Assembly: GCA_003116975.1 (NCBI GenBank) | Contig: BGKB01000046.1 | Location: 433,538 to 497,537, forward strand | Source: Aurantiochytrium sp. KH105 | Taxonomy: Eukaryota; Sar; Bigyra; Thraustochytrida; Thraustochytriidae | DNA: 64,000 nucleotides | Reading direction: 5' to 3' | Shown here: positions 13,144 to 62,858 of the stretch, in pieces | How positions within the stretch are numbered: the first letter of the stretch is position 1 | Layout of the letters: each line of letters opens with the position of its first letter | Notes under the pieces: model-generated | Databases searched by the model: none | What the model saw: only the letters and a program-made list of their open reading frames with translations | Told to the model about the DNA's origin: nothing | Made by a program: the position numbers and the translations under genes

Positions 13144-13589
13144 CGCGCAAGGGCGGCAAAGGCGCTATAACGCAGTGGCCGCGCCTCGCAGCCTGGCCGC
13201 GGCACCAGACCCACTCGCCCCTCGCCTCGCCTCGCCTCGCCACGCCAGGCAGGCAAGCAAGCAAGCAAGGGCCACGCACGCCGCGCGGGGTCGCGCGCGC
13301 GAGCGGCGGAGAGAGCGGGCGAGCGAACGAGGCCGCGCGGAGAGGCGCAGGGAGGAAGAGGGCGCGCGAGGCGGCGGCATCGATCGGCCGGGCTTGCGTG
13401 CTTGCCTCGCCTGCTTGTCGCGCCTAGCAAGCGAACAGCGCGTGCACGTGCGTGCACGTGCCGCGGCTGAGCGACGCGGAGGCCGAGGGCAGCGCAGCGC
13501 GGTGCGGTGCAGAGGCCGCGGCGGGCGGAGCGGCGCGGAGCAGAGCAGAGCAGAGCAGCGCAGAGCAGCGCGGCCGGTCGTGAGCAGCG

Positions 13590-26345: not shown

Positions 26346-28925
26346 ATGGAGTCCGCAATTGAGGAGAAACTTGTACGCGAGCCCCACGTAGTCAAGCGAT
26401 GGATAGAATACCTTGATGTGAAAAAAGATGCTCCGTATCTTCTCCGCGTAGCCATCTACGAGCGAGCTCTCTTTCACCTCCCTGGCAGCTACAAACTTTG
26501 GTTCAGATACCTCGACGAGCGGTGCAAACATGTTCGGGGCAAACCGCTCGCTGAAAAGGAATACGAACTCACCAACGCAGCCTTTGACCGCGCGCTCGTG
26601 TACATGAACAAGATGCCCCGCATTTGGATCATGTACGCCGCCTTCTTGCGCTCGCAGGACCTCATCTCCAGGTGCAGACTCGCCCTTGACGATGCTCTGC
26701 GTGCCTTGCCTATCACGCAGCACAACCTCATCTGGGATGAGTACCTGCGCTTCGTCTACAAGCACAACGAGCTCTGGCAGCTTGGCTGCCACGTGTGGCC
26801 AAAGTACCTCCAGTTTGAACCACGCCATCGCGAGAAATATGTCGACTATCTTCTCGAAGCCAATCGCCACGGGGAGGCCATGGAGCAGATTGGTATCATG
26901 GTCAGCGACCCAGGCTTTGTTTCCGCCGAGGGGCGCACGCTTCACGACATCTGGATCCAGCTTTGCGACCTCATCGTCAAGTATCCCGCAAAGGCCGCCA
27001 ACCTCGGCCGCAACAAGCTCGACGTCGAGGCTGTACTTCGCGCAGGCTTGCGCAGGTTTTCAGACGAGACGGGCCGTCTCTGGTGCGCGCTCGCCGAGTT
27101 TCACATCAAGCTTGGCCAGTTTGGCTCCGCCGAAGATGTCTACGAGGAAGGTATGCGCGCAGTCAATACTGTTCGCGACTTTAGCACCATCTTTGACGCC
27201 TATGTTCAGTACCAGGAAGCAATGCTTACGGCCAAGATGGACCTTTTTGGAGACGACGAGGAAGAAGACGGAGACGAAGCGCGCGACAACAACACAGATT
27301 CTGGCACGGGGAGCAGCGCCATCGAGGGTAGTACTGAAAACGACAAGGCTGCCGCCGAGACCGCGATCGAGGGACCTGAGGCGAAACGCCGCAGGACAAC
27401 GGCGATTACCGAGCCCTTTTATCACATCAACGCAGACTCAGAAGACAAGGTCAATGACGTTGACTTGCGTCTTGCGCAACTGTCCTTTATCATCGACCAG
27501 CGCCCGTTTCTTCTCAACGAGGTGGTCTTGCGCCAGAATCCGCACAATGTGCAAGAGTGGCTCAACCGCGCGAAACTTTTCCGAGAAAAGGAAGATCTTG
27601 CGCAGGTCGTTACCACGCTCAACCGCGCGCTCGAGGTGGTCAACCCGGCCTTGGCTCTTGGGCGTCCCAGCGAACTCTGGATTCAGCTGTCCAAAGTGTA
27701 CGAGGACAATGAAGACTCCGAAGAGGCGCGCAAGGTCTTGCAGACCGCAGCCGATAGCCCCTTTCGAGACGTCGAAGACCTCGTGGCCGTTGTCTGCGCT
27801 TCGATCGAACTCGAACTCCGCCACGAGGCCTTTGAGCGTGCCCTTACGCTCGCTCGGGACGCCGTCAAGCGACCTTCTGAGCGCGCCATTGCCGAGAACA
27901 TTGCTCTGCAGCGCCAGCGCCGCACCAAGGGTGTCGAAGGCCCAAGCGTGCCCGGAGCGGACGATATCAAGAACACCGAGGGCATCGTCAAGGAGAAATT
28001 TCGCCTGCAGCAGCGCCTGTACAAGTCGACCCGCCTTTGGAGCTTGTACGCGGATCTCGAGGAGTCTCTCGGTACGCTCGCCACTGCTCGCGCTGCATAT
28101 GAGTCCATGATCGACCTCAAGGTCGCCACGCCGCAGACCATTCTCAATCTGGCCTGCCTGCTGTATGAAAACAACTTTTACGAGGATGCCTTTAAGGCTC
28201 TTGAAAAGGGGGTAGCACTCTTTGACTGGCCACACGTGGGAGATATCTGGAGCGCCTACCTGACAAAGTTTGTCAGCCGCTATGGTGGCTCCAAAATGGA
28301 GCGCACGCGCGAGCTCTTTGAAAAAGCTCTTGCTGGCGCGCCTGCGGACAAGGCCAAGCCGCTCTTTTTACTTTTGAGTGATTTTGAAGAAGAACATGGC
28401 GACTCCACACACGCGATGGCCAACTACGAGCGCCTTTGTGCCACGGTTCCCGAGAACCAAAAGGTCGACATGTACAACCTCGCTGCTGCCAAGGCGCACG
28501 AGCTCGTGGGTGTCTCTCGCATGCGCAAAATCTTCGAAAGCGCACTCGAAGACCTCCAGGACCCTGTCAATCTGCGCGAAGTCAGTTTGCGCTTTGCAGA
28601 AAAGGAGCGCGCTCTTGGCGAGATCGACCGCGCACGTGCCATCTTCAAGCACGCGGCCCAGTTTGCGAACCCCCGGACGGTGCTCTCATTTTGGGATCGC
28701 TGGAAAGAGTTTGAAGTCGAGCATGGTAACGAAGATACCTATAAGGAGATGCTCCGGGTCAAACGATCGATTCAGGTGCGCTTTCAAGACACGAACTACG
28801 CCCTTGGCCAGAATGATTCTCATGACAGCGAAAAGCCCTTTGCATCCCAGCAAGTTACGAACTCTGGCAACAAGAAGGACCCCAATGACAAAGACAAGGT
28901 CGAGGACGGCACACCTGCGCCTTGA
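26346..28925 (+). CDS. SYF1: Pre-mRNA splicing factor SYF1 (XAB2)
   Basis: SYF1/XAB2 is a scaffold of the Prp19/NTC complex in the activated spliceosome. The 859-residue product, close to the usual length, begins with the family's N-terminal HAT/TPR units (VVKRWIEYLD, then LWFRYLDERCKHVRGK and FDRALVYMNKMPRIWIMYAAFL). It continues as an uninterrupted array of half-a-TPR repeats with Trp and Tyr at the expected places (LWSLYADLEESLGT and IWSAYLTKFVSRYGG are typical). An acidic, low-complexity insert (about 300-355) and a charged tail after residue 825 are the only disordered parts. The ATG at 26346 begins the product directly with a helix. Presence of the full-length factor implies an active spliceosome in an organism whose genes here mostly lack introns. 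Confidence 0.95.
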   Translation: MESAIEEKLVREPHVVKRWIEYLDVKKDAPYLLRVAIYERALFHLPGSYKLWFRYLDERCKHVRGKPLAEKEYELTNAAFDRALVYMNKMPRIWIMYAAFLRSQDLISRCRLALDDALRALPITQHNLIWDEYLRFVYKHNELWQLGCHVWPKYLQFEPRHREKYVDYLLEANRHGEAMEQIGIMVSDPGFVSAEGRTLHDIWIQLCDLIVKYPAKAANLGRNKLDVEAVLRAGLRRFSDETGRLWCALAEFHIKLGQFGSAEDVYEEGMRAVNTVRDFSTIFDAYVQYQEAMLTAKMDLFGDDEEEDGDEARDNNTDSGTGSSAIEGSTENDKAAAETAIEGPEAKRRRTTAITEPFYHINADSEDKVNDVDLRLAQLSFIIDQRPFLLNEVVLRQNPHNVQEWLNRAKLFREKEDLAQVVTTLNRALEVVNPALALGRPSELWIQLSKVYEDNEDSEEARKVLQTAADSPFRDVEDLVAVVCASIELELRHEAFERALTLARDAVKRPSERAIAENIALQRQRRTKGVEGPSVPGADDIKNTEGIVKEKFRLQQRLYKSTRLWSLYADLEESLGTLATARAAYESMIDLKVATPQTILNLACLLYENNFYEDAFKALEKGVALFDWPHVGDIWSAYLTKFVSRYGGSKMERTRELFEKALAGAPADKAKPLFLLLSDFEEEHGDSTHAMANYERLCATVPENQKVDMYNLAAAKAHELVGVSRMRKIFESALEDLQDPVNLREVSLRFAEKERALGEIDRARAIFKHAAQFANPRTVLSFWDRWKEFEVEHGNEDTYKEMLRVKRSIQVRFQDTNYALGQNDSHDSEKPFASQQVTNSGNKKDPNDKDKVEDGTPAP

Positions 28926-40652: not shown

Positions 40653-41171
40653 GACCGAAACGCTTGATTGAGCGTTCCAAAAAACCATTCTTTACGAGCG
40701 CCGACTCCATCATTGATTGCTCACTCCAGACAAGATTCTTATATGTCCCCCGAAAAATTGTTCGTCCGTAAAGTCATTTTCTGCTGCCGGTCATTTGCTT
40801 TTGCGATGAGAGTACATCAATTTTCTGATCCTCAATTTGCATTCGTCTTGTAGTATGATGTTTTCCATTTGGCAAAAAGCATATACGGTGATCTGTGACA
40901 TTTTGCTTTCACTGACAGTTGATTTTGCGAAAGAGGCCGTCTGTTGTGCTTTCCTAAATTGCTCCACTATCGTGGGAAGCACTCTAGCTGAGCGCTCATC
41001 GTCTCATGTACGTAATAAATGGTCTATTTGGCCGATATGAATGGGAAAACAAAAACTGGCCCATTTTGGCTGGCTGGCTGCCTGGTTGGACGTGTAGAAC
41101 TCCTCCATCCACCAAACTCGCGCGCGAGTGCGAAGTCGTGGCGAGCGCAGCAAGGTCGCGAGCTCGCAAGA
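40653..41171. other. Spacer between coiled-coil gene and MPP10
   Basis: About 520 bp, AT-rich in the middle. It contains the 3' UTR of the upstream gene and the promoter or leader of MPP10. An upstream ATG at 41019 is in frame with MPP10 and would add 51 residues with no resemblance to the family, so it is treated as leader. Confidence 0.55.
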
Positions 41172-43481
41172 ATGGTGTTCACGTCGCTTTGCAGCGGGGA
41201 GCTGCCCGAGGCCAAGGTGCTCGAGTCCCTGCGCGCGTTGCAGGCAGAGCAATTTGGGGGGTCGCGTGAGGAGCTCCGGGATGCCGCTGGTGTTGCGCTC
41301 AAGGGGCTCAAGGCGCTCTTTGACGCGGTCAGACGCGCAGAGACGACATCCAAAGGCGTCAAGGCGCTGGCAGGCAATGGCCATGGCGATATCTCTGACG
41401 TAGACGATGATGACGTCGTTAGCGAGGAGGACACGGATGCCGAGGCAGACGCTTTGCGCACCAAATCTCGCAAGCGCCAGCGCCCGATTGGCTCGGGTCG
41501 ACTCGATGAGCTCCCTGTGGAAGGCTTTGACTCCGAGCAGCTTTGGGCAATGCTCGATATGGAGAACAAGCCTACCATGCGTTATCTAGAAGAGATGCTC
41601 ACGGATCTCGAGTCTGCGAATGAGCAGGCGGGTGGGGACCTTACTCTGCTTGCAAGGACAGTAGACGATGAGGACGACGACGAGGAGGACGAGGATGACG
41701 ACGAGGAGGACGAGGACGACGAGGACGACGACGATGGAGACCTCGCTGCAATGCTCGCGAGAGCGCGCTCCCGCAAAAATGCCCAAAATACCAAAACTGG
41801 TGCCGTGAACGAGGACGAGGACGAGGACAGTGACGCCATGGAGGCTGACGATGACGACGAAGAAGGAGAAGAGGAAGAGGAAGAGGAAGAGAAAGAGTCC
41901 GATACGAACGCGGAAGAGCTTGATGTGCCTACGGAAATGGATGATGACTTTTTCACATTTGCGGACATGGAAAAGTTCACGTCGAGTATGGAGGATGATG
42001 ATGTGAAAATGAAACTGAAGCAGCTCAAACGGGAGGAGAAAGAGAAGGAGAGCGACGCCAAAGATGCGCGAACAAGTCTCGAGGAAGACGACTACAGCGA
42101 CGATGGCGCAGGCGATCATCCCGAAGCAGACGACGATAGCGACGCCGATGACGACGACGACTCTGGTGTCGATCTTGACGCTGTCAACGACGAAGATGAA
42201 GACGACTCGAGCGACGAAATGGCACGCCACGCCACCTTTTCAGACTTTTGGGGAAAGGCCGGTAAGCCCAAGCTAAAGAAGACCCCGCCGACAACACTGT
42301 CAAAGAAGAAGAAAAAGATCACAAAGCTCGATGAGGACGAAGAGTTCGACGATGACGACGACGACGAAGTGGACGAGGAAGAGGAGGAGGAGGTAGAAGA
42401 AGAAGAATCGGATGCCGAGGCAATCGAAGATGTCGATGGCGAGGAGACCGACGCCGCCGCCGTCACCGCCGAACCGGACGTACGTCTTTCAACTCACGAG
42501 AAACAGCAACTGGCGCTACGCGAGCAAATTCAAGAGTTTGAGGATGAGCTCGTTGGAGAAAAGAATTGGGAACTCACCGGTGAAACGCGAGGCAGGGATC
42601 GTGAAAAGAATGAGCTGCTGGAAAAGGGCGCCGACCTGGAGGTCGACTACATTGCGCGACCCGCGCCCGCAATCACCGAGGAAGTGACGCGGAGTCTGGA
42701 GGACACCATTCGTCAGCGCATCTTGGACGCTGACTTTGACGATGTGGAACGCAAGCTTCCCATGGAAAAGGACGCAGACTACAGGCCCAAGGCAGAACTG
42801 TCCATGGAAAAGAGTAAGGTCGGCCTCGGCGAAGAGTATGCCAACGCCTACGAGCAGCAGGTGCTCGGACACGCTTCCGAGACAGACACGGCGCGTACGG
42901 AAGCGCATCAGGAGCTACACAGCCTTTTTACCTCATTGTGCCACAAACTCGACTCGCTGTCGAACTTCCACTACACACCCAAGCCACCAACGCTTGAAGG
43001 CGCCGTGGAGGTCAAGAATACCGCCGCCATCGAAATGGAAGAAGCCATGCCGGTCGCTGTAAGCGCATCTACCCAGGCTGCGCCGGAGCAGGTGCTCGCC
43101 GTAAAGAAGGGTCGCGAAGGTGTCGGCAAGACGCGCGAGGAGATGGACCAGGACGAGCGCAAGGCGCTTCGACAGGCGACCAAAACGGCCAAACGCAAGC
43201 GCAAGCGCATGCGCGATGCGGAGAAACGCATCGTATCGAAACTGAATCCTGGGCTGGGCAACAAGCACGCCAAGCGTGCGGCTGCTGTGACGGCGAGCGG
43301 CGCAACGACGCCTGGAACGGGCGGCGACGACACGAAATGGACCAAGTCTTCGACTTTTTTCGCCAAGATGCAGCAGAATGCAGCCGATGACCAGACGGGA
43401 GGGCACCGCGGCAAGGCTGCACGTCAGTCTCGCGACGACAAGCTAAGCAATGCCAGCAGGACAGCGCAGCTGCGTCTTTAG
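41172..43481 (+). CDS. MPP10: U3 snoRNP protein MPP10
   Basis: MPP10 is an SSU-processome component needed for early 18S rRNA processing and acts with IMP3 and IMP4 in the nucleolus. The 769-residue product has the family arrangement. An N-terminal helical segment is followed by very long Asp/Glu-rich blocks (about 170-330 and 385-430) that alternate with short conserved motifs (MDDDFFTFADMEKF and ATFSDFWG). The conserved C-terminal core follows: QIQEFEDELVGEKNWELTGE, RPAPAITEEVTRSLEDTI, RILDADFDDVERK and the LHSLFTSLCHKLDSLSNFHYTPKP segment. A basic C-terminal tail completes it. ATG 41172 is preferred over in-frame ATG 41019, since the family signature begins just after it. AATAAA lies shortly after the stop (about 43490). 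Confidence 0.9.
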   Translation: MVFTSLCSGELPEAKVLESLRALQAEQFGGSREELRDAAGVALKGLKALFDAVRRAETTSKGVKALAGNGHGDISDVDDDDVVSEEDTDAEADALRTKSRKRQRPIGSGRLDELPVEGFDSEQLWAMLDMENKPTMRYLEEMLTDLESANEQAGGDLTLLARTVDDEDDDEEDEDDDEEDEDDEDDDDGDLAAMLARARSRKNAQNTKTGAVNEDEDEDSDAMEADDDDEEGEEEEEEEEKESDTNAEELDVPTEMDDDFFTFADMEKFTSSMEDDDVKMKLKQLKREEKEKESDAKDARTSLEEDDYSDDGAGDHPEADDDSDADDDDDSGVDLDAVNDEDEDDSSDEMARHATFSDFWGKAGKPKLKKTPPTTLSKKKKKITKLDEDEEFDDDDDDEVDEEEEEEVEEEESDAEAIEDVDGEETDAAAVTAEPDVRLSTHEKQQLALREQIQEFEDELVGEKNWELTGETRGRDREKNELLEKGADLEVDYIARPAPAITEEVTRSLEDTIRQRILDADFDDVERKLPMEKDADYRPKAELSMEKSKVGLGEEYANAYEQQVLGHASETDTARTEAHQELHSLFTSLCHKLDSLSNFHYTPKPPTLEGAVEVKNTAAIEMEEAMPVAVSASTQAAPEQVLAVKKGREGVGKTREEMDQDERKALRQATKTAKRKRKRMRDAEKRIVSKLNPGLGNKHAKRAAAVTASGATTPGTGGDDTKWTKSSTFFAKMQQNAADDQTGGHRGKAARQSRDDKLSNASRTAQLRL

Positions 43482-46528: not shown

Positions 46529-49500
46529 TCAGTTTTGCCGCATCCAGGTTGAGAAAGTCTCCCGACGGGACGCCGCGGTGGTGCTCTCTTCAGAAGGCAC
46601 CATCGCGTCCTCCTGCGAGGCGAGGATGGCTCGAATCGCCAGCTCAAGGTCATCGACCTCTGACGCAAGATCCGGCATCCGAACACACAATGCATCTTCG
46701 TTCCACGAAGTACCAAAGCGTCCCTCCCACTCGCTCACATCCATCATGTCATCATCAACCACGTAAGGGAGCATGTTCGCAGCCCGGACACGCTGAAGGG
46801 CATAGCAAAACTCGTCGCGACAGGTGTCATGCTCCGTCTTGTCCCGATTGACCCTCTGCATGTACGTTCGGGTGACAAAAACCACAACAGCCTTCGACCG
46901 GTCAATGCCGTTCACCATGGAGTCGAGTGTGTCCGCATTCTCGTCTACTTCTTCGTGCTGCTGCTCCACCTCTTCTTCCTCACGAAGCCAACAGAGAATT
47001 CCACGCGCCTCGAGAGCCTCCGCCACAACTTCGACCTTTGCATGATGTTCATCAATTCCATCCAAAGCATGCAAAAGATAGACGTCGAAAGGTTTGTCCG
47101 TGCTTAGCAAACAATCAGCCGCATCGGCGCCCTCTACAAACTGTTCAAACGCTGTCAAGGGCAGAGATTTAGAGCCCAAGGACGCAACATGCGATCTTGC
47201 ATAATTCAGGGCTTCATCGATGTCCTCCAGAGAAGCGCAAGCGGCTCTGCGATCTGTACCGTCGGAACTGATAAAAAGCTCCCCACCGAGTTTGCCCTTT
47301 GTGAACGAGACGTTGATGGACTTGAGACTATTCATGATCAGTTTGACGTGATTCGTCAAACTCTTGTACACGGACTGCTTCGAAAAGTACAGCAGCACTC
47401 GATTGTCGCTCGTCTCCAAAATCATGCGCACATCGTCAATAACGACAGCCGCAAAGTCGGAATACAAAGCAGGACTCGCAACGCTCATGAGTGCCGGAAG
47501 GCTTTGCGCGAGGCTAGCAATCAGGCGTTGAAATATGTCTTCGGGTAAAACCGCAAACTGGATGTATGCCAGGACATGTCCTTTGCCCAAATCTCGGAGG
47601 GCGTTCTCTCTATCATCCTTATCAACAGGACGCAAAAGACTTGGCAGCAACAATGCGCCTTCTTCGTCGTCATCATCGTCTTCGCCGATCCAGGGACTCG
47701 GGCACGCCAACAGCATCGTTTGCGCTAGCTTGGCGAGGTAGGCGATCGGTTGATCTCGCCACAGCCTTTCCAGTAGATCACGACTGGCCACGCCTCGCAC
47801 TGATCGATCGTCAAACGGACTCAGTGACTGCAAGGCGCTCTCTTCGTCATCGTCGCTCATTCGAGGACTCATATCAGTCGTCAGCGTTGGCGTAATCAGC
47901 GCCATGAACTGGTCCATCGCTTGGCTCCAAAGACCCTGATTCCCAGCTTCACGGCCTGGCCAGTCATCGAGCGCTCCCTCGAGCTCGGGCGGAAAACCTT
48001 TGTTGTCGCCGCCGGCGCCGTCGACGCCGTCGACTTCATCATCATCCTCCTTCCGTTTGTCCATGCTCGGATCACGAATCACGCTTGAGAGGCTTCTCAG
48101 CAACCATTGCGGCCGGGTCACGACAGTCCGGTGCAGCTCGTCGTTCTGGCCTGTCGCCAGATGCACGAGCGCCCCAACTTCGTGCATGTACCTGAGCATC
48201 TTGTGCGATTCCTCTTTCGATATGTAGCACTTTTCTTTTGCTATTTTCTTCACTTCATCCAGTGAAACGAAGTTGTTCTCTTGCGAGAGAAGCTGCTTCA
48301 AGCAGTACGACCACCGCAGGGGAACCTTTTGCTTACAAAAGTCTTTCTCCGCGACACTTTCGAACAGCGCCGAGCGGAGGCGTGCTACTCGTTCGCCTGC
48401 GTCCTCTTCGTCAGTGTTATCGATGGGGAAGAAGTGAAGCCTTTCCGCCTCGTTTCGCACCACAGATGCCTTGACATCGCTTCTCATCAGTATCTTGGCA
48501 TCGAGTGTTTTATTGATCGTCTGGTGATCCTCCGGGTCCGGGACCTGGTCCAAATGAGTGCCGACGATCACAATGTTGGCATTTGGCGCGTGCAAACGAA
48601 TGGAGCCAATCCAGAAGCGAAGTGCCTTCAGCGCGTCCTCTTGTGAGTCGAGGTGTTCCAAGTCTCTCTCATCCAGGACTCCCGCACGCCTCGTCTTGCC
48701 CAGCACCTCGCGCATGTCAAAGACCAACGCATAGACGCCATGCTGCGTGAGAAAGAGGCGGTGCAGGGAATGAAACATCTCTTGCCCGCTGTGGTCCCAG
48801 ATCATGAAACTGACTTCCTCGTCCGGCTTGTGCGCTTGCTCCTTGACGTGCAGACGAACTGGAGTCTCGATAGCCTGTGAGATCTCCTTCTCGTCAAAGT
48901 GCGGTACTTGGCCACGCGAAGCACTTGCCCGCGTTGTGGCGCGAACGCTCTTGCGAGGGACAGATAAGAGTGCCGCGACCTTGGACATGCGACGGGAAAG
49001 GCGTTGAGCTAGATTCGGTTGACGGTACGCATATTTTGCAAGTTGAACCCCCAGATCGGCGTTGTCGATCTTCTCACTCATCTTCCAGTCACGTGTGTAC
49101 AAGAGGGCAAGATCCACACCGACCGTCGGATCGTACTCGGGGTTGAATGCCTGATTGAGGAGCGAGCGGACCATCGCCGTCTTGCCCACGGAGACCTTGC
49201 CCACAACGATGAGCTTGGCGCGGCCCCAGCGTACCGATTCGTTGGCCTGAAGGGCCTCTTGCGCAGCCAGGTTAAGACTCTGCACCTCTCCCATTACGAG
49301 CTTGAGGTGAGCCCTGATACGAGCCGCGCCCACAGAGTCTTTCGAGTTAAGTCTGCATGACGGGTGTGTTAGTACGAGGTCATCTTTGGCTTCTCTCTCG
49401 TAATGCAACGTACTCGATCTCACGAAGAATCTCGTTGCTTTCCAAAGCCGCGGCCAGTGCCCCAGTACCCACGTCGCCCATTTTGGTTTCCCAGAGGCTG

Positions 49501-52500
49501 TGCAAAAGTTGCGCAACGCCAATACGTTAATAATCATCATCGTCAGCAAAGCTCTGATTTGCCCCACTGCCTTTCTCCGCGTACAAAATACAACGTACTT
49601 CAACTCTTCCAGCGACGAGGAATTCTCCTTAAGGGCGCTCGCCAAGGCCACAACGCCATCATCGCCGATTGGATTGGAGCTAAGACTGCGCTTTCACATC
49701 CAGAAGTAATGTTGTGAAGTTGGTACAAAATTGCAGAGTGGAATAGGTTGGGTAGCAAAGCAGCGTGAGAGAATGAGAGAGAGAGAGAGAGCGCAAGGCA
49801 GACGATGATGGAGGGACCCAGACGTCATGTTTGGTGCAAGAGTATACATTATAGCGCAAAACCGCCCTGGTTAGCTTCTCCTGCGTCTTGCAAACATTCA
49901 TCATTTCCTTCTCGCGACTTACTCGAGGTGTTTCAGGGACGTATTTCTAATAAGCGCGGTCCCGAAGGCCTCTGCACCGTCAGCGCCAATACTGTTCTCG
50001 CAAAGACTGTGCTTGTTTGCACAATCGTTGATTCGAAGAAGAAAACAAGTCGCAGCAAAAGAGCGATCGTAAAGCATGCGGGAGAGAGGAAATAACGATG
50101 CTGCTGTGAGTTGTCAAATCAAAATGTGAATGGTTTGCAACGGAAAGAGGGAATGTGCGCATCATTAAACCCCTCTCACTCTTTGCGCACCGTGCTTCTT
50201 TGTCTCACGCGTACTTACAAGATCTTTTGTAGCGAGGCGTTCTTTGCGAGGCCGTCCGCTAGCGCCTTCGCGCCATCCGAGTCGATTCCGCAATTGGAAA
50301 GGCTGCGGTGTTGCGCATGAAGTACACATGGAATAGGCAAATGACAACCGCGCCGGAGTTATGAATTTGTAAAAGTCATTTGTGTGTGTGTCGCAACGTG
50401 AGTATTACTCTTCGATCCTCCCGTTCACTCGGACACATGCATTCTTTCATCACTGCCACGTACTCTAAACGTAGGAGGGCTGTGTTCTTTGCGAGCGCGG
50501 CCCCTAGCGCTTTTGCGCCATCTGAACCAATCTTGTTCATGTCAAACCTGCGCTCGTGATAAATGAGAGAAGAGACCCATTCATCGGTGGGGGACGACGA
50601 GTATCAAATAAGTTGAAATTGGTGAGTTGTTCTTGCTTCTGATACGCGTTTTCTCTTTCGGCCGATACCACTTACGAAAGCTCCTCTAACGACGAATTCA
50701 TGACGAGCGCGCCGGCCAGAGCCTTTGCGCCATTTGGGCCCAGATCGTTCTCGCAGACGCTACGTTCGTGAATTGTGGACATACCGTAAAGACGTTAACA
50801 TACCACAAAGAGAGCATGCATTTCGGTCAGTCTTTCTCAGTCCAAACACCTTTCTCATCATCGTCATCATCATTAGTACCATGCGACTTACTCGATCAAA
50901 AGCAACGAAGAATTCTTTCCAAGCCCTAGAGCCAGCATTGACGCGCCATCATCGCCAATGGCATTGAAACCAAGGCTGTGACACGGGAAAGGTAACGACA
51001 AATGTCGATAGGCCCGTGCATCAGAAGAACGATTCATTCATTCATACATACTGATTAGTCTTCCTTGATCCTTGCGCGCGCCATTTAACTCTTCACATGC
51101 ATCACCTACTTCAACTTTTGCAGCCGCGAGTTCGTCACGAGCGCAGCGCCCAGGGCTTTTGCGCCGTCCGAGCCGATCGTGTTAGTCATGAGACTGCGTA
51201 TCAGATGTACATAGAGGAGCAAGAGAAGAGTGACAGGTTACGACAGCGCCGTACATTTCGCAAGGTAACGAAGATGGGGCCATTGCATGCGGTGGTCAGC
51301 CATTCTCGTCAATCTGTATCTTCGATTCCATCGCGAACCGCTTACTTGATTTCTTTCAGCGACAGGTTTCGCGCAAGGGCTCCTCCCAGCGCTTTGGCGC
51401 CATTTGAGCCAATTTGGTTGTTCGTGAGACTGCATACATGCGCCATGGTCATGTGCATTGTTTTCAAATGTAGCATGAAGAAGTCAATGGCATCGAGAAT
51501 TGTTGATTCAATTCGTTTTACGTCAGATGCGCACGTGTGCTCGTGAGTTTCTCGAGCTCCCATCATGAATTCCTTTCCTTTTATAGCGTACTCTAAAATC
51601 TGCAGCGAGGAGCTTACCACGAGCGCCCTTGCCAGCTCTACTGCCCCCAGGTCGCCAACTTTGTTCCCAAGGAGCCTACGCAGATTTTGTACTGGTCAGT
51701 CGTTTTCACTCCTTTCACACTTTCCTTTTGCCTCTTCGTCACTTACTTTAACTCCTGAAGTGACACATGCTCTGCAATCGCGCTCGCAAGCGCTTGTGCG
51801 CCACTCCACCCGATTCGATTTTCGTCGAGCCTGCGCTCCGTGAGTGCTGGTCCTTGTCAGTTCCTCTTTGTTTGTGCGAACAGTCTAATTTTTTCCCCCT
51901 CATCACATCTTGCAACACGTACTCGAGGTTTCGCAGCGACGAATGTTTTGCAAGCACGCCAACGAGCGCTTTCACGCCATCCAAACCAATGTCGTTGCCA
52001 CAGAGTCTGCAGTTTCCACATCACGCCCGTCCGGAAGCAAGGCAAAGCGAGGTACAGGACAAGTGTGCCAGAGAAGTTAGATTTTTGCGGATGAGACAAG
52101 CATCTCACGCACACTCCTTCTCGCAAGACTTACTGAAGTTCTCGCAAGGACGAGGTCTTCATGAGCGCATTCGCAATCACAACAATGCTTTCATCGCCCA
52201 AATCAGAACGATACATACTACACCATGTAAAAACGACAACAGTATACCAGAGTTAGTTGGTTGGGTTCGGTACACTGTGTACGTGATCAAGTCCATCCTT
52301 TCGTTGACGCGAACTCATTCTGTGTCGTCTTTTGAACATGACTTACCCTAGGTGTTGTAGTGAGTCGTCCTTTGCAAGCGCGTCGGCAAGCACTTTTGCG
52401 CTTTCAAGGTCACATTTCGCAAGTGCTAGACTGTTCGTGGTATGGTCGGGGTGAACCGAATCAGAGATGTGCCAAGGACAATATCAGACCATGGACGTGG

Positions 52501-52677
52501 CACGATTGAAGTGCGTGGTTGTTAGGAGCTCGTTTTACCACTATTTGAATTGATTCGCTCTCTCAAAACCTACTGGACTCTCTCTTTGCCCTCGGCTATC
52601 GCCTTGAGCTCCTTTGCGAGACCTTCTTTGGTATAGTGGCGCGACGCTTCGCCCACTCTGCTTTCAGCTCCCCCCAT
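46529..52677 (-). CDS. LRR-Roc-COR-TIR protein (Roco family), 16 exons
   Basis: Spliced product of 1368 residues. Exons: 52677-52574, 52430-52347, 52217-52134, 52006-51923, 51830-51747, 51675-51592, 51429-51346, 51193-51110, 50975-50892, 50759-50676, 50547-50464, 50302-50219, 50006-49923, 49685-49599, 49497-49414, 49352-46529. All introns are GT-AG, phase 2, 61-237 nt. Exon 1 gives 34 residues. Exons 2-15 each encode one leucine-rich repeat of the RNI/NLRC type (L-x-x-N-x-I-G-x-x-G-A-x-x-L-A-x-A-L). Exon 16 encodes a Roc GTPase (GKVSVGKT 479-486, DHSGQ 614-618, THLD 693-696), a COR domain (PQWLLRSLSSVI), and from about 1180 a TIR domain (FDVYLLHA, GIDRSKAVVVFVTRTYM) with a CRDEF Glu at about 1275 at the expected NADase position. 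No kinase domain is seen. Roco proteins are signalling GTPases, and TIR suggests a death or defence role (inference). Confidence 0.85.
49414..52430 (-). repeat. Array of 14 single-repeat LRR exons
   Basis: Fourteen exons, thirteen of 84 nt and one of 87 nt, each encode one 28- or 29-residue LRR. They are separated by unrelated introns of 61-237 nt. Every exon begins with one base completing a codon and ends with two bases of the next, so all are phase-symmetric. Splice boundaries fall at the same position in every repeat, directly after the L-x-x-L turn. The exons are clearly homologous, but the introns are not, which points to old exon duplication. Confidence 0.85.
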
Positions 52678-56442: not shown

Positions 56443-58266
56443 TCACAATTTTGATGATGGGACGCCAGCCAGCGCAGCAATCTCACGAAGCGCTTGATCG
56501 ACATCGAGAGCGAACTGACGCGAGTCCGTCTCTGAACTTGCATGCTTGGACTCAATACAAAGTACCACGTCCTCTTTGCCGGGGATGTAACAAACGCCAT
56601 AGCCATTCGGCACGCCGCAGCCAAAGAGACCCCCAAATGGTCGCGTCACATAGGAATTGTTCGACGTCGAAAGCACAAAGCTGGTGGTCTGCGCAAAGAC
56701 AGGGTGCTCAAAGAGAGCCGGAGAAGCGCCCTGGAGTCGCAGACCCAAAAGATGACGATCGATCCCGCCTCCCTGCTGGCCCTGCTGAATGTAAGAAATA
56801 TGTGCGTCGCACGCCTTGCGCAGCAACTCTCCAGCCTCCGGCTTTCCACCGAGAGCAGCCTCAACGAAAGCCTCGCTCGCATTAGAGACCACTCTGCATG
56901 TCTCGGTGCGTCCCTTGAAATACTGAACCATGCCGATTGTTTCGTATGTGGGCGGAGGCAATGGAGACTGTGTCCGACGGCGCCATGCTAGTTGCATTGC
57001 CATCTGCACGGCCGCATCAGGGCTCAGGCGGGCTTCCTTCCACACACCGCGGCCGAGGCCTCGGCACTGATAAACGTGAACGTCAGAGTCGGCAATGGCG
57101 ATGTCAACCAGCCGCTCTGCCTCGCAAATGTCCGCTGCAAGAGCATCGTCCACGTGAAACTCCACGTGGTTGAATGAAAGCGCATTGCCTTGGGAATGGT
57201 CGACTCCAGATTCTGCCTCTGCTTCGGCGTAGGGGAGAGCATCGTTGAAGAACATGCCCAAAGGGACCGGCGCGTCAGCCCAGCTGTGCTCCACATTAAT
57301 GGAAGGGTTGCCGTCCTCTTTCACCTTGAGCTGGAACGATTTATCAAACCATGTCGTGCGGCCGTCTCCTACAAAGGTTGTCTTTGCGCAGTCGGAGTCT
57401 GTCTCGTCGATACCATCCTCGAGAGAGATGGCGAACACCGCTGATTCGACAACATGAAGAGCGCTGGCATTAACCTCATCACTGGTCATGCGGTTACGAA
57501 CGCGAGCCCAGTCCTTGCGAGGCAGCGCCGTAAGCACAGAGACGGGTTGGGGATCGGGTCCGCGGCTCGTAGCGTCCGCCTTGATTGCGGCAAAGGTTGC
57601 GCACAGATCGTCGAGGGCGACTACCTCGCGGCCCTGCAGAACGGGTACGGTGTACAGACGACGACCCGCGATGACGACCACGTGTTGAGACTCTTCCTCG
57701 GAATACTTGGCCTGATGATCTTCCTCGATGCCAGGGATGCGCGTGAGGGAAAACATGCGAGTGTACTGGTCCATGCACTGGACCTTATCGCCACGGGCCG
57801 TCTTTGCCGGATAGCTTCCCTCGAGCAGGGCAACGTGATTGAGCAGTGCGCCGCGAGTGATGGCAGCCGCGGAGAATGCCTGGTCCCACTGTTTCCGAGC
57901 ATCCCCAAAGAGGTACCCGGTCACATTGCTGTTGATGGGGAGCGCCACGTCCCACTTCATGTACGCATTGGAGGTCCAGAACCTGTCGAGCCAGTTTCGA
58001 TCTTGCTGAGCAATGTCTTCGAGCTTTCGCTGCGCGGCCAGCATGCTCTCGTCGCTTTTGGCTGCATCCACGAGCGCTCGCACCTCCTCGCGCTCCTCCT
58101 TCGTCTGCAAGAACGGCTCGGCGGTTGCCATGAACTTGTCGAGGGTTTCGTCGAGCTTGCCAAGCGGGAGGGCCGGCAGGCTGCCTTGCTGCGAGAATGT
58201 CGTCATGGCGCGGAGCGAGCTCGCGGCGCCGCGCATGCGCGTCTGCGCCAGCTTTCGCGCGAGCAT
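56443..58266 (-). CDS. Carnitine O-acyltransferase with mitochondrial leader and SKL terminus
   Basis: Carnitine acyltransferases move acyl groups between CoA and carnitine for transport between peroxisome, cytosol and mitochondrion. The 607-residue product matches the family in length. It has the catalytic histidine in NVEHSWADA (about H327), the CoA-binding GKGxxK-equivalent region, a VYQCRG/ETCR segment and the STS carnitine motif (FVLSTSNNSY). An N-terminal segment (about 1-25, MLARKLAQTRMRG, Arg-rich and free of acids) looks like a mitochondrial presequence, while the C-terminus is the canonical peroxisomal signal SKL. A second in-frame ATG at 58206 (Met21) would remove most of the leader. 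This arrangement resembles yeast CAT2, which is dual-targeted. Carnitine acetyltransferase is the likeliest activity. The frame continues upstream without an ATG. Confidence 0.9.
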   Translation of the reverse strand: MLARKLAQTRMRGAASSLRAMTTFSQQGSLPALPLGKLDETLDKFMATAEPFLQTKEEREEVRALVDAAKSDESMLAAQRKLEDIAQQDRNWLDRFWTSNAYMKWDVALPINSNVTGYLFGDARKQWDQAFSAAAITRGALLNHVALLEGSYPAKTARGDKVQCMDQYTRMFSLTRIPGIEEDHQAKYSEEESQHVVVIAGRRLYTVPVLQGREVVALDDLCATFAAIKADATSRGPDPQPVSVLTALPRKDWARVRNRMTSDEVNASALHVVESAVFAISLEDGIDETDSDCAKTTFVGDGRTTWFDKSFQLKVKEDGNPSINVEHSWADAPVPLGMFFNDALPYAEAEAESGVDHSQGNALSFNHVEFHVDDALAADICEAERLVDIAIADSDVHVYQCRGLGRGVWKEARLSPDAAVQMAMQLAWRRRTQSPLPPPTYETIGMVQYFKGRTETCRVVSNASEAFVEAALGGKPEAGELLRKACDAHISYIQQGQQGGGIDRHLLGLRLQGASPALFEHPVFAQTTSFVLSTSNNSYVTRPFGGLFGCGVPNGYGVCYIPGKEDVVLCIESKHASSETDSRQFALDVDQALREIAALAGVPSSKL

Positions 58267-58827
58267 GCTTGGGCTTTTGTCTGGAGGCGGACTACTCACG
58301 TTGCCTGCGCGAGCGTAAGGGCGGCACGGCGCGCTCAAGATCGGACCACGGGTGGGCCCTAATGTCCGGCGTCCAGTGTGGGCCCTGGCACATTGACATA
58401 CATGTCTGCACACACTTGTGGGAAAGCAGGCAAAAAAAAAAAAGTTGAGGGCGCAAACGGTGTGGCAGAGCAAAAAGAAAAGACATGGCAAAAGACCAAG
58501 GGAACAAGACAACCAGCTCAACCTAAATTGTGAACACAAACGTGTCCTCACCCGGGGAGGCTCGTCACATATGTGTGCGAAGGAAGGGCTCGGACGAGGA
58601 ACTTACATAAACAGGGCTCCTCGGATAGCCCGGCAGACAACAAGAAGAGAAAGAATCGTGGCGAACGCGAACCTTCAATGTATTATGATATACTGAGGCC
58701 AATCATGTGCGAATTTCAACACGTGTACCGGTGCGTGTGCGCGCGTCATGTCAATAACCTTTCGGAAAGTATCTTGGGGAAGAAGGCATGTCTTTTGTTT
58801 CGTTTTTTGTCTTCCTATTGCGTCGTG
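58267..58827. other. Spacer between MPS1 and carnitine-acyltransferase genes
   Basis: About 560 bp between tandem minus-strand genes. It should hold the 3' UTR of MPS1 and the promoter or leader of the acyltransferase. A short A-run occurs at about 58433-58442. No GCAAGT motif and no supported gene was seen. Confidence 0.55.
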
Positions 58828-61800
58828 TCATGGGCTTGTTGCGTCGAGCTCGTCGGCGCCAAGAAAATCCCAGGTCGTCCCAGATCGTACAATGGCCTCA
58901 ATGGTGTTGTCCTGAGAGGCTAAAACCTCGCGTTTCGCTTCGAGCCCCTTACGCAAGATGGCTGCAAGGTCCCCGCCCGGCTTTTCCGGTGTCGAGCCTT
59001 TGGGCCGCATGAAGCGAGCCGAGCCCGACTCTGCTACTGGTTTGAGCGCGGCGCGCCCACTTGCGATGGAAGCCTGTAGACTCGTAGGCAACATCGCGTT
59101 TGATGGCGGTCTCGAGGACCGAGCAGGAGGTGGCGTCGCGTGCGAGTCTCGCATCGAGCTTCCCGACCGGGCTGCCGCAGCCGCAGCCGCTGCAGCTGCT
59201 GCGGATGCTGCGAATCCAGGGTTCCGGCGACCGCTGCGATCCATGGCCCCACCGACTCCACCGGCAGCAGCAGCGGCAGCAGTAGAGAGTCCTGTGTTTT
59301 CGTCAAGATCGGCCGTGGACTCTTCTTTTACCTGGGGCATGTTGGGCGGCGAGAGTGACTTGCGGGGGCCACGATGCAAGTCTGTCACTCCACTAGAGTC
59401 AGCCGAGGGAGATGCATCACTTGAACCGGCTGAGTCCGTCGCAGCCATATCCTGCATGATGCTTCCCACGAGATTATCTACGATCTGATCAATGCGAGCT
59501 GGGTCCGAGGCCCGCACCTGTTCGATGCGAGCTGCGTTTTCGCAGACTTGATCCACAATGCGTTGCAGCTTTTGCCGCAAAATGTCAGCCTTGCCACTGA
59601 GCGCGCTTGTCTGCATGGACGCGGAAACTGCCAAGTGCGCGCTTGGATTAAGAAAGGGATGCGCAAGGAGCCCGCGACGGCCCGGCTTATCGACAATCGG
59701 CGCACGCTTGGCCGGATCAAAGCGCAAGCACTGCTTGATGGAGTCCACCATGTCTGGGTACGGGTGCTCGAGTTCTGGAAATGGGATCTCGTAATTCGGA
59801 TCGGAGATGCAGTGAATCTTCTGAATCAGCTTGTGATTGTGGAATGGCGTGTACCCGTAAACCAAGAGGTAGAGGATGCAGCCCATGGACCAAATGTCGC
59901 TCGCGCGGCCTTGCTTGAGCTTCATCCCTGGCGCTCCGATCTTTGGCCGCGATCCAGGCGTGCTGTTAATGTCGATAATTGATTCTGGGCTCATGAAATT
60001 GATGGTTCCGACCTGCGTGTCGCGCATAATGTTGGTGGTATCGTTTGAAATAGCCTTGGCAATGCCGAAGTCGATCAATTTTAGCTTGCCCTTGACAAAG
60101 AGAAAGTTCGCCGGCTTCAAATCACCGTGCACGATGCGCTCCTCGTGGATTGCGTGGACAGCCTGCAGCATGTTCATCCACACGAGACGAATGAAGTTGA
60201 CAGAAAGATTACCGACCATACCTGGCTCTTCGGCACGAGCTTCCTTGCGCTGTTGCTGCAACATCAGATTCAGGTCAACTTCGCCGTGCTCCATCACCAC
60301 GTAGATGACCTTACGCGCGTGGTCAATCTCTGAGTCAATGAGCGTAATGATATGCGGATTGCCACGCAAGCGCTCCAGGAGGGAAATCTCGTTCTTGAAG
60401 CTGCTCAGCGCAGACGGCTCGGCGCGCGTGAGCTTGATCCGCTTGAGTGCATAAATCTGCGGCTCGTCCTCGCCGATTGCAAGAACTTTGAAAACCTTGC
60501 TCGTACCACCGCGTCCAATGACCGCAAGGCGCAGGTACGGTTTGCCGTTCACCATAAAGAGGTTCTTGCTCGAGAACATGGAATCGTGAAAGCCCTGCGC
60601 TTCCACTGGCAAGCTCTCACGTCGAAGGTTTGATGAATGTGCGGCTGCCCCTGCAGACAGAACTCCAGTCGTTGTCGCCGTAAGGTCCTTCATCATCCCG
60701 CTTTCGTAGCCTGAGTGGGTCCGCCGCAAGACAATCGTCGGCTTGTCGGACGAGCTCGACGACCTTGACGCTTTCGGCTTTGAAACCGGGCCGCCATCTC
60801 CAGCAAGCGGCATCGTTTGCGTCGGTTCATCGTCACCATTGCCAGTCGTACTGCCGTCACCGCTCACGTCCGCGTCTTGGTCTCTGTCCTCAGCAGACCC
60901 ATGATCTCGCGTCGAAGCAGGCAGACTCGGCTTCCAATTCTTAATGTAGCTAAGGTCACCAATCCGTCCTGTGAGAGGGGCCCCATTGCTCTTTGCATTC
61001 GTGTCATTAGACGCGGCAGAAGCTCCTTTGACATCCTCGTGGGCTGCACCGAGTCCATTCGACGAGGGGGCTGTTGTTGCCTGTGAAGATGCTGCAGACG
61101 CGTCCTCTTTGGAAGTATCGTCGCCGTCGTTGAGGACAACACGCTGAGCGCGTCCGATTTTTGTAAGCTTGGTCTGCGGTTTGCGCAGACCACCCCGCTT
61201 GGCCGTAGCGCTGCTCCGCAGACCCCCCGGCCGCAAGCTCGAACCGCGCCCGAGTACAACCGTCGGTTCTGCAGTCATCCGCGATGAGGAACTCGCCGAT
61301 GCTGACTTTGCCGCGCCGCCAGAAGCCAATGAGCTGGCTGATGGCACCGCGGCGGCTACGTTGTCTCGAGGTCGAGAGGACGATTCTCCAGTTCGCAACT
61401 GGTTTGTCACGTCGCTCGCTTGAAAAGAGATGGTTTCGTCCGCGTCGGCGGCGGTTTGGTGCTTTGCGATCCATGCCTTGAGTAGTTCTGCTCGCTCGGC
61501 GGCGTCAATGACCTTGTTCTTAATTGCAAGGTCGATGACTTGCCGCGCGTTTTCAGCAGCTTGGCTTCGAATCTCGAAGCCTGCCCACTGTTCGTAGAAC
61601 TCCTTGTAGAATCTAGCAATGCCAAGTGTAGCCATGCGCTCAAAGACGAGACGAGCGCACTTGCTTGTACTTGTTCGCTCAACAAACCTGGCAAGGCCTA
61701 CCCAGGCGCGGAGTTTCAGGTATGCAGCTGCATCAAGATCTGCGGTGTCTTGCTCCATTTGTTTGAGCTGCGCCTGCGTGCTTGCCTCGGGGGCCATTTG

Positions 61801-62052
61801 AACCAGCTGTGCTGCATCGAAGCGATACCATTCCTCAAAGGCGGCGTCGGGGCTGCCTTTTTGCAGAGCCGCGTCTACGAGGGCTTGCCGCACCTTGGAA
61901 GCGGCCTGGATTTCGATTTGCCTTTCGTTTTCGAATTTGCTCGGGTCAAAGATGAGCTTGCGACGATCTGCGCTCCGTTTCGAACGCACGCTCGACGCGC
62001 CGCCGCTCTTGGCCCCCAGCGGGGCAAGGTTTTCCTTGTCGGGCACGACCAT
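58828..62052 (-). CDS. MPS1: MPS1/TTK dual-specificity checkpoint kinase
   Basis: MPS1 activates the spindle assembly checkpoint at kinetochores. The 1074-residue product has an N-terminal helical TPR-like region (about 60-195, ending in an AERAELLKAWIAKH helix), like the TPR domain that targets MPS1. A long disordered linker follows. The kinase domain lies at about 500-800: a Gly loop (IGRGGTSKVF), VAIK-type lysine in YALKRIKL, MEHGEVDLNLML hinge region, HGDLKPANFL catalytic loop (HRD replaced by HGD, as human TTK has HSD), DFG in LIDFGIAK, and QVGTINFMSPESI activation segment, all typical of MPS1. The C-terminal tail is low-complexity with a poly-Ala run (CAG/GCA repeats near 59170-59200). 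ATG 62052, single exon. An inverted GCAAGTTG pair lies about 500 bp upstream. Confidence 0.92.
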   Translation of the reverse strand: MVVPDKENLAPLGAKSGGASSVRSKRSADRRKLIFDPSKFENERQIEIQAASKVRQALVDAALQKGSPDAAFEEWYRFDAAQLVQMAPEASTQAQLKQMEQDTADLDAAAYLKLRAWVGLARFVERTSTSKCARLVFERMATLGIARFYKEFYEQWAGFEIRSQAAENARQVIDLAIKNKVIDAAERAELLKAWIAKHQTAADADETISFQASDVTNQLRTGESSSRPRDNVAAAVPSASSLASGGAAKSASASSSSRMTAEPTVVLGRGSSLRPGGLRSSATAKRGGLRKPQTKLTKIGRAQRVVLNDGDDTSKEDASAASSQATTAPSSNGLGAAHEDVKGASAASNDTNAKSNGAPLTGRIGDLSYIKNWKPSLPASTRDHGSAEDRDQDADVSGDGSTTGNGDDEPTQTMPLAGDGGPVSKPKASRSSSSSDKPTIVLRRTHSGYESGMMKDLTATTTGVLSAGAAAHSSNLRRESLPVEAQGFHDSMFSSKNLFMVNGKPYLRLAVIGRGGTSKVFKVLAIGEDEPQIYALKRIKLTRAEPSALSSFKNEISLLERLRGNPHIITLIDSEIDHARKVIYVVMEHGEVDLNLMLQQQRKEARAEEPGMVGNLSVNFIRLVWMNMLQAVHAIHEERIVHGDLKPANFLFVKGKLKLIDFGIAKAISNDTTNIMRDTQVGTINFMSPESIIDINSTPGSRPKIGAPGMKLKQGRASDIWSMGCILYLLVYGYTPFHNHKLIQKIHCISDPNYEIPFPELEHPYPDMVDSIKQCLRFDPAKRAPIVDKPGRRGLLAHPFLNPSAHLAVSASMQTSALSGKADILRQKLQRIVDQVCENAARIEQVRASDPARIDQIVDNLVGSIMQDMAATDSAGSSDASPSADSSGVTDLHRGPRKSLSPPNMPQVKEESTADLDENTGLSTAAAAAAGGVGGAMDRSGRRNPGFAASAAAAAAAAAAARSGSSMRDSHATPPPARSSRPPSNAMLPTSLQASIASGRAALKPVAESGSARFMRPKGSTPEKPGGDLAAILRKGLEAKREVLASQDNTIEAIVRSGTTWDFLGADELDATSP

Positions 62053-62858
62053 GGAGGCCGAGCAAGCGAGAGCAAGCGAAAGAAAGCCCCAGACGTTGCT
62101 TGCCGGGCGCCTCGTTCGAGAGCCTCTTCCTTGCTCGTCTCACGCGGCGCGACGCAGCGCGGGGATTGCGTCGCCTCGCCTCGCGCAGCCCTCTTCACCC
62201 TCGGCGTCGCCCGGGCTTTCCTGTCCGTGCCAGGCCAGCGGGCCCTCGCTGCTCAGGTGGGTCTGCAAGTGCAGGCGCAGCCGTCTGTTGCAGTTGCGCG
62301 CTCTCGAGTCCGTGGATGGCGAAATGTGGAAAACCGCCGCGACCCGCCTTTTGTTCGCCCTTGTCTTGTTCGAGTTAGTTTTTCCTCGCTCGCTTGCACG
62401 CACGCACTGGCGGGCACGCACTGGCGCGCACGCGAACGGACCCGTGCCACGCCCCGTCGGCTGCAGCGAGGAGAGGGCTTGCGCGAGTTCTCTGGACCTG
62501 CTGCACAAGCGCCTTGTGCCGCGCCGCCGCGCGGAGCAGGTCGCAAGGCGCCGCAAGTTGGAGTTCTGCAACTTGCTTGCTCTGTTTCCTGTTTTTTTGC
62601 CCTTGGTGCCCCTCTCGTTCTAACTTCCATCGCAAGAGACAGCAGGTAGCAACGATTACAAGCCAAGGGAGCGAGAGCATTCTGATGCCCGCGTAGACGT
62701 GATGAACACACGTCGCGAGAGTGGGAAGGGAAGATGTAGGCCTACGCCTAGGCCTCGGCCAGAAGATGTGAAACGAAGATTCATTGCGTTCGTGTCGTCG
62801 GAACGTCGAGAGAAAGGTGACAATGGTATGGTTAGAATGCAGCAGTGACACGAATGAA
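62053..62858. other. Spacer upstream of MPS1
   Basis: About 800 bp between tandem minus-strand genes. It contains a GCAC-rich part near 62400 and the inverted GCAAGTTG repeat at 62553-62576. Several overlapping frames are GC-bias artefacts. No gene is supported. Confidence 0.55.
62553..62576. promoter_or_regulatory. Inverted GCAAGTTG repeat upstream of MPS1
   Basis: GCAAGTTG is followed after 8 bp by its reverse complement CAACTTGC. It resembles two opposed copies of the GCAAGT core found upstream of other genes in the window, here as a close inverted pair about 500-524 bp from the MPS1 ATG. It could be a palindromic binding site; this is inferred. Confidence 0.4.

Follow-up and report, generated by a model that had tools for sequence, protein, structure and literature searches.

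The window analysed here, a stretch of 64,000 nucleotides from the thraustochytrid Aurantiochytrium sp. KH105 (contig BGKB01000046.1), carries on its minus strand a gene of 16 exons whose predicted product of 1,368 amino acids combines 14 leucine-rich repeats (LRRs) with a Roc GTPase domain, a COR domain and a C-terminal TIR domain (Table 1). On balance, we favour the interpretation of this product as an intracellular receptor-like LRR-Roco-TIR protein, most likely one of a repertoire of non-self recognition proteins that would work like NLRs on a Roco switch.

Pfam searches with the spliced product gave matches above the curated cut-offs for LRR_6 (4.3e-41, with six stretches significant individually), Roc (PF08477, 2.3e-19), Ras (1.9e-13, in the P-loop part, residues 474-509), COR-A (PF16095, 3.5e-10, residues 772-860) and TIR_2 (3.9e-7, residues 1196-1295; 31.0 bits against a cut-off of 28). 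The Roc, COR-A and TIR_2 matches all fall in exon 16, which sits within an open frame of 1,054 codons. In a phmmer search against the PDB, the Roc-COR part matched LRRK2 chains and 4wnr ('Leucine-rich-repeat protein'), and the stretches IWDHSGQEMF and VGTHLD paired with the Roc domain of LRRK2. The GTP-binding motifs (P-loop GKVSVGKT, DHSGQ, GTHLD) are present and intact in the predicted Roc domain, and its position directly before COR places the predicted protein among the Roco proteins. An earlier note, made from the sequence without database searches, had proposed the order LRR-Roc-COR-TIR, 14 LRRs of the RNI type, intact Roc motifs and a terminal TIR domain; the profile matches, the 14 LRR exons of the splice model and the alignment with LRRK2 bear out each of these points. 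The TIR match also falls where the note had placed the domain, and the lack of such a match, which the note had named as a refutation, did not occur when we checked for it. The same note had called the protein 'NLR-like'. Of the 10 matches that this protein gave in Pfam at E<=0.1, none was to NB-ARC or NACHT, and the likeness is an analogy only; working like an NLR is plausible. We rejected membership in the NLR (STAND) class, as the window protein has Roc-COR instead of a STAND ATPase (a genome-wide NACHT search was not made).

The LRR exons were located as open segments of 84 nt between AG and GT, a pattern that exons 3 and 13 escaped. Exons 2-15 are 84 nt long, except for exon 14 (87 nt), and each encodes one LRR (28 residues in the exons of 84 nt); one repeat per exon with phase-2 introns is found for 14 of the 14 LRR exons of the model. 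All 15 predicted introns are GT-AG introns in phase 2. The N-terminal MGGAES (52660-52677), also kept in the second haplotype described below, matches MGxxxS, which we take to be the N-myristoylation motif, and is a possible membrane anchor.

Contig C43 (locus L049) contains a copy that is 95% identical to the window gene across the COR-TIR part. An open reading frame (ORF) neighbouring the window gene also neighbours this copy (97% identical) and, since it is common to both, C43 and C46 seem to represent two haplotypes. Across 7 kb, all 16 exons recur in the C43 copy at equal length, save for a single gap of 3 nt in exon 16, and each of the 15 introns retains its GT and AG; gaps between the haplotypes occur in 10 of the 15 introns (up to 22 gap columns). 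The ratio of nonsynonymous to synonymous substitution (dN/dS) between the haplotypes is 0.282 over 1,367 codons, without stops. By part, it is 0.37 in the LRRs, 0.31 in the linker plus Roc, 0.20 in COR and 0.195 in TIR (8 nonsynonymous and 11 synonymous differences). The window gene, TIR included, is under purifying selection between the haplotypes. Because exons and intron borders are kept in the second haplotype at a dN/dS of 0.28, the LRR exons and the Roc exon most likely belong to a single gene under selection. The COR part of exon 16 contains an in-frame insertion of 52 residues (window positions ~47804-47959) that is missing in all 15 aligned paralogues and present, again in frame, in the second haplotype; we considered that it could be an unspliced intron.

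We rejected separate genes or a pseudogene on the evidence of this syntenic second haplotype with the same structure and a dN/dS of 0.28. An artefact, be it a Roc gene to which unrelated LRR exons had been joined or a pseudogene in decay, is accordingly highly improbable: splice dinucleotides (15/15), phases and exon lengths are all kept between the haplotypes, there are no stops, and LRR-exon matches were found within 7 kb upstream at at least 12 of the 30 loci that match the COR-TIR part of the window gene (among the best 150 of 609 candidates, which missed the window's own LRRs).

The Roco-TIR family and its sensors

The assembly searched (76.0 Mb in 367 contigs) seems to hold both haplotypes, since many loci occur as near-identical pairs. 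The COR-A model matched 124 places, 116 of them above the cut-off (124 of 124 candidates were scored). A TIR domain lies at most 2.6 kb downstream on the same strand at 96 of these places among the TIR matches listed (91 detected by TIR_2 and five by a match to the window gene's own COR-TIR part), and we thus discarded the idea that the architecture is unique to this gene. Halving the 96 loci for two haplotypes suggests about fifty Roco-TIR genes per haploid genome. The genome searches for Roc and TIR covered the best 150 of 381 and the best 150 of 258 candidates, respectively, and their counts are lower bounds. The Roc-to-TIR distance is 1,273-1,285 nt in 58 of 67 Roc-TIR pairs among these matches.

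Apart from the second haplotype, the window gene has its nearest kin in 28 loci, with 35-56% identity across the COR-TIR part; 24 of these lie in frames of 858-956 codons, and five have one stop within a match. We read 20 of 78 listed sister regions. Fourteen (L032-L036, L038-L045 and L047, on contigs C36, C17, C94, C65, C49 and others) contain one open frame encoding WD40-Roc-COR-TIR; the WD40 part was assigned by similarity to L036, and Pfam confirmed it in four of the four regions scanned (L032, L036, L041, L043). In three regions, LRRs precede Roc-COR-TIR: L029 and L030 have them in exon arrays that lie upstream of the frame, and L031, whose COR-A match (26.2 bits) is below the cut-off of 35.3, has them within the frame. 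The frames of L037, L046 and L048 encode Roc-COR-TIR with a partial WD40 part or none, and L032 and L033 carry, next to the WD40 gene, a second Roc-COR frame with upstream LRR exons.

A quick Roc-COR tree with a midpoint root (34 rows; L034, L038, L041 and L042 were left out by a motif filter) places the window gene, on a long terminal branch (0.55), in a clade of 16 (SH-aLRT support 100). This clade adjoins a WD40 clade of 13 (support 99), three rows of which (L037, L046, L048) are the ones with partial or no WD40 part, and L029-L031 are distant. Two kinds of sensor, LRR exons and WD40 propellers, are therefore found on related Roc-COR-TIR cores. Either the sensor would have been swapped on a common core, or TIR would have joined Roco proteins more than once.

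Array variation is seen in the pair L029 (contig C117) and L030 (contig C54), which are 93% identical over 4.4 kb from the last LRR exons on and 87% identical over 0.67 kb upstream of the arrays, and which would be allelic or recent copies. We found 8 LRR exons in L029 and 15 in L030, with 13 of 21 spacings being 135-137 nt. A gap of 1,888 nt separates LRR exons 5 and 6 of L029. Apart from codons 2 (entropy 2.47 bits), 3 (2.94 bits) and 8 (1.49 bits), the 23 exons are nearly alike. Constancy at positions 1, 4, 6, ~9-11 and 12-14 is partly an effect of the search pattern, which asks for certain residues there; codons 2-3 and most others are untouched by it. Codons 2-3 follow the Leu of LxLxxN and presumably lie on the concave side of the repeat. 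At first and second codon positions, the divergence between L029 and L030 is 0.643 at codons 2-3 and 0.071 elsewhere (bootstrap ratio 6.8-14.0). As a neutral yardstick, the 16 introns of 125-137 nt between these exons have a divergence of 0.119, about five-fold lower than that of codons 2-3. Codons 2-3 have a ratio of nonsynonymous to synonymous diversity (piN/piS) of 2.13, against 0.36 outside codons 2, 3, 5, 8 and 9. These values point to diversifying selection on the predicted binding surface, as a strong pattern rather than a formal test, because the exons are non-independent and their splicing is predicted. In the array of the window gene, too, variability peaks at codons 2 and 3 (0.75 and 0.72, for 13 of its 14 LRR exons), but the remaining codons also vary (averaging 0.39).

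The NB-ARC model matched only two places in the assembly (C295:20284-20676 and C64:300670-301059; 27.0 and 25.2 bits, cut-off 23.5). Two family peptides compared with 84,980 prokaryote species gave 32 stretches and no confirmed relative, two peptides being a weak test.

Some further observations concern the surroundings of the family. Clusters of matches to LRR exons of the same type lie without an adjacent COR-A match on C218, C340, C151, C122, C316, C44, C87, C49 (407764-410994) and others. In the first 15 kb from the low ends of contigs, which make up at most ~7% of the assembly, we counted 25 of the 150 listed TIR matches versus 10 of the 150 listed Roc matches; this excess of TIR perhaps reflects a subtelomeric position or assembly breaks. 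Several of the contig-end TIR matches are in frames of more than 1,100 codons with no nearby Roc match among those listed. Other TIR proteins are L013 (C36), an ankyrin-TIR protein with a SAM-like stretch in between (recognised by eye only), and L009 (C8), in which TIR follows a part without Pfam match.

The TIR domain, the proposed working and its alternatives

We aligned 25 TIR domains from five architectures (14 of 16 of the window type, three of the L029-L031 type, 6 of 16 of the WD40 type, L013 and L009); their identity with the TIR of the window gene is 22-56%. No more than three alignment columns never vary, namely those of a Leu, of the Trp in WxD and of the Glu in CRDEF. A profile of the family TIRs retrieved 48 PDB sequences at E<=0.01, by name nearly all TIR, SEFIR, TLR, SARM1 and plant resistance proteins; the best matches were Cat1, bacterial TIRs including AbTIR, TIR-1 and Roq1, followed by SARM1 and RUN1. 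Cat1, AbTIR, SARM1 and plant TIRs are NAD+-cleaving proteins (in part going by molecule names). The Cat1 alignment pairs the Glu of DWCWDEL with the family Glu. The acidic residue of CRDEF that the earlier note had singled out is thus conserved as the putative catalytic Glu in all 25 aligned TIRs, the window copy included, and in 16 of 16 window-type rows of a separate alignment. The window TIR also keeps the Cys three residues before this Glu and the Phe after it.

We propose the following working. The N-terminal RNI-type LRR horseshoe would bind a ligand or partner, a step supported by the array pattern in the sister genes; LRR exon arrays and WD40 propellers would be alternative sensors in the repertoire. 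Binding would alter the nucleotide state and the pairing of the Roc-COR module, presumably under GTP control, and this change would gather the C-terminal TIRs. Clustered TIRs would then give the output. In most family members this is probably either a nucleotide signal or a cleavage reaction, on NAD+ or on a related nucleotide, leading to defence or cell death. Since its TIR keeps the Glu and is altered elsewhere, the window copy may work together with catalytic paralogues instead of by itself. Clustering and output follow established properties of TIR domains. The switching step is based on RocCOR dimerisation, an established property of Roco proteins (PMC6337361, in excerpt). The receptor-like logic suggested by the earlier note appears strengthened by the copy number, the exchange of sensors and the hypervariable, predicted concave LRR positions of the sister pair. 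More tentatively, the whole family could be an NLR-equivalent repertoire built on a Roco GTPase, with some fifty Roco-TIR genes per haploid genome, LRR arrays that would gain and lose tandem exon-intron units and diversify only the ligand-facing residues, WD40 versions on a related core, and nucleotide-cleaving TIRs gated by GTP.

Several observations weigh against this reading. SARM1 and plant TIRs have a Trp at position -4 from the Glu, and in their WxD motif an aspartate that precedes the BB loop. Trp is absent at position -4 in all 25 aligned TIRs (N, T, Y, F, S or A are found there). WxD is kept in 24 of the 25, the window copy alone having WLR (WLH in the second haplotype) with a 10-residue acidic insertion beside it; the window copy also has YLLH where 23 of 25 have FLSH, L009 (MISY) being the sole other deviation. 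A profile made from window-type TIRs alone gave weaker PDB matches (best 1.5e-4, TIR-1 at 0.77, SARM1 unlisted at E<=1). At the level of the family, 28 of the 124 COR-A places are without TIR among the matches listed, and the hypervariable pattern belongs to the distantly related L029 and L030, not to the window gene, whose LRR part evolves under purifying selection (dN/dS 0.37). Finally, Roco proteins of Dictyostelium and animals have many roles beyond immunity (PMC6337361, in excerpt).

The NADase activity suggested by the earlier note is therefore favoured by the conserved Glu but weakened by the lost WxD in the window copy and the absence of the Trp throughout the family; because of the lost aspartate and the acidic insertion, it would be least secure for the window copy. 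That the TIR of the window copy is catalytically weak or dead, and has been retained because the protein serves catalytic paralogues as regulator, scaffold or sensor partner through TIR-TIR or COR-COR pairing, is a serious possibility, if short of probable. The altered motifs and the insertion, the WLR being unique among the 25 TIRs, fit this explanation, as do the long terminal branch in the Roc-COR tree and the maintenance of the domain (dN/dS 0.195), with the changes common to the second haplotype (H for R in WLR). The retained Glu, Cys at -3 and following Phe argue against it.

Two other explanations concern the role of the family rather than the chemistry of one copy. Roco signalling without an immune role (in chemotaxis, in stress or in control of the life cycle), by a family that grew through neutral or dosage-driven duplication, would agree with the diverse cellular roles of Dictyostelium and vertebrate Roco proteins (PMC6337361, in excerpt) and with the many brown-algal ROCO genes that are affected by other stresses (PMC11378527, in excerpt). 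We hold it to be unlikely, given a variation of the predicted concave residues in L029/L030 five-fold above intron divergence and the presence of two kinds of sensor on related cores. Allorecognition or mating/fusion compatibility, in which polymorphic LRR arrays would separate self from non-self and TIR would kill incompatible partners, could account for 8 versus 15 LRR exons in a pair of loci whose DNA, starting with the last LRR exons, is 93% identical, and for a large divergent family. Nevertheless, dozens of dispersed loci suit a repertoire better than a single compatibility locus, and no link to mating or fusion loci turned up, no search having been aimed at such loci; we consider this explanation rather improbable. 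A receptor repertoire for non-self recognition thus stays our preferred interpretation.

Features of the window

The coordinates of the gene are given in Table 1. Other open frames of the window encode an LmjF365940-type cytidine-deaminase-like domain (9417-11675, minus strand; Pfam, 3.5e-55) and proteins of ordinary eukaryotic genes, according to Pfam: PH-Costars (13584-16343, plus), the splicing factor Syf1 (26319-28922, plus), Mpp10 (41019-43478, plus), a carnitine acyltransferase (56446-58602, minus) and a protein kinase (58831-62139, minus).

Table 1. Predicted LRR-Roc-COR-TIR gene of the window, with the basis of each assignment.
Feature	Position	Strand	Basis
Whole gene, LRR(14)-Roc-COR-TIR, 16 exons, 1,368 aa	46529..52677	-	splice model, Pfam, second haplotype
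Exon 1, start codon (ATG at 52677), N-terminus MGGAES	52574..52677	-	splice model; kept in second haplotype
Exon 2, LRR 1, 84 nt, phase 2, divergent repeat	52347..52430	-	pattern search, splice model
Exon 3, LRR 2, divergent repeat	52134..52217	-	placed by eye; splice model; second haplotype
Exon 4, LRR 3	51923..52006	-	pattern search, splice model
Exon 5, LRR 4	51747..51830	-	pattern search, splice model
Exon 6, LRR 5	51592..51675	-	pattern search, splice model
Exon 7, LRR 6	51346..51429	-	pattern search, splice model
Exon 8, LRR 7	51110..51193	-	pattern search, splice model
Exon 9, LRR 8	50892..50975	-	pattern search, splice model
Exon 10, LRR 9	50676..50759	-	pattern search, splice model
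Exon 11, LRR 10	50464..50547	-	pattern search, splice model
Exon 12, LRR 11	50219..50302	-	pattern search, splice model
Exon 13, LRR 12	49923..50006	-	placed by eye; splice model; second haplotype
Exon 14, LRR 13, 87 nt	49599..49685	-	pattern search, splice model
Exon 15, LRR 14	49414..49497	-	pattern search, splice model
Exon 16: Roc (P-loop GKVSVGKT, DHSGQ, GTHLD), COR, TIR, stop	46529..49352	-	splice model, Pfam, phmmer vs PDB
TIR domain, putative catalytic Glu in CRDEF, divergent YLLHAL and WLREEEEVEQQHEEVDEN	46628..47098	-	Pfam, TIR alignment, PDB profile search

Comparison with known systems

In plant TNLs, too, a single protein carries sensor, nucleotide switch and TIR, and these receptors form a large diversified family. 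They differ from the proteins described here in having a STAND ATPase instead of the Roc-COR GTPase, an N-terminal TIR and C-terminal LRRs; the NLR-like domain order named by the earlier note is an analogy only, as LRR and TIR lie at the ends opposite to those in TNLs. LRRK2 and other solved Roco proteins share Roc-COR and matching G motifs with the window protein, but have a kinase (LRRK2) or no TIR after COR. SARM1, AbTIR and Cat1, which are among the solved TIRs found by the family profile, are regulated by other modules.

If the more tentative reading, that of an NLR-equivalent repertoire, is true, it would imply an independent origin, outside plants and animals, of a family of immune receptors combining a switch with TIR, and a candidate system of exon-array diversification in a lineage without a known one. 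NLRs are treated as the standard combination of sensor, nucleotide switch and TIR, and a large Roc-COR family doing the same would make it possible to ask whether the type of switch matters. Its members could serve as models for the control of an attached effector by Roco, a question that is open for LRRK2, and a receptor repertoire with exon-array diversification would then lie in a genome in which immunity or allorecognition can be tested.

We found no description of thraustochytrid Roco-TIR genes in the CC-licensed literature. In excerpt, a paper on Thraustochytrium aureum (PMC8917795) gives numbers of WD40 and LRR proteins and has 'TIR' only as an author's name, and PMC7159879 has Roco only in its reference list. 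Schizochytrium aggregatum has at most four ROCO copies (PMC11378527, in excerpt).

The closest parallel in gene structure is that of the LRR-ROCO genes of brown algae (Ectocarpus and kelps), with one phase-2 exon of 72 bp per LRR (Teng, 2024; PMC11378527, in excerpt). In the same excerpted text, LRR-ROC-COR is the sole ROCO architecture of brown algae, without TIR, and four species have 31, 9, 22 and 47 ROCO genes. The window gene resembles these genes in its domain order, in one LRR per phase-2 exon and in belonging to an expanded family, proposed in the algae to be immune receptors, and differs from them in its LRR exons of 84 nt (one of 87) and its C-terminal TIR. As to the TIR, the combination has precedents, and we dropped the claim that Roco-TIR had never been seen before. 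The red alga Chondrus crispus has a TPR-ROCO-TIR protein, in which TPR replaces LRR and for which the excerpted text leaves exon arrays unmentioned (PMC11378527). Predicted proteins of Aplysia unite LRR, ROC, COR and TIR as here; these are two TLR-like proteins that also carry an MBT or EF-hand domain, in the context of animal TLR/MyD88 (PMC9334734, in excerpt). Since these known Roco relatives differ in this way, the brown-algal ones by lacking TIR, that of Chondrus by its TPR and those of Aplysia by their TLR-like make-up, the family counts as a new variant, in which LRRs encoded by exon arrays, or WD40, are combined with Roco and TIR at high copy number.

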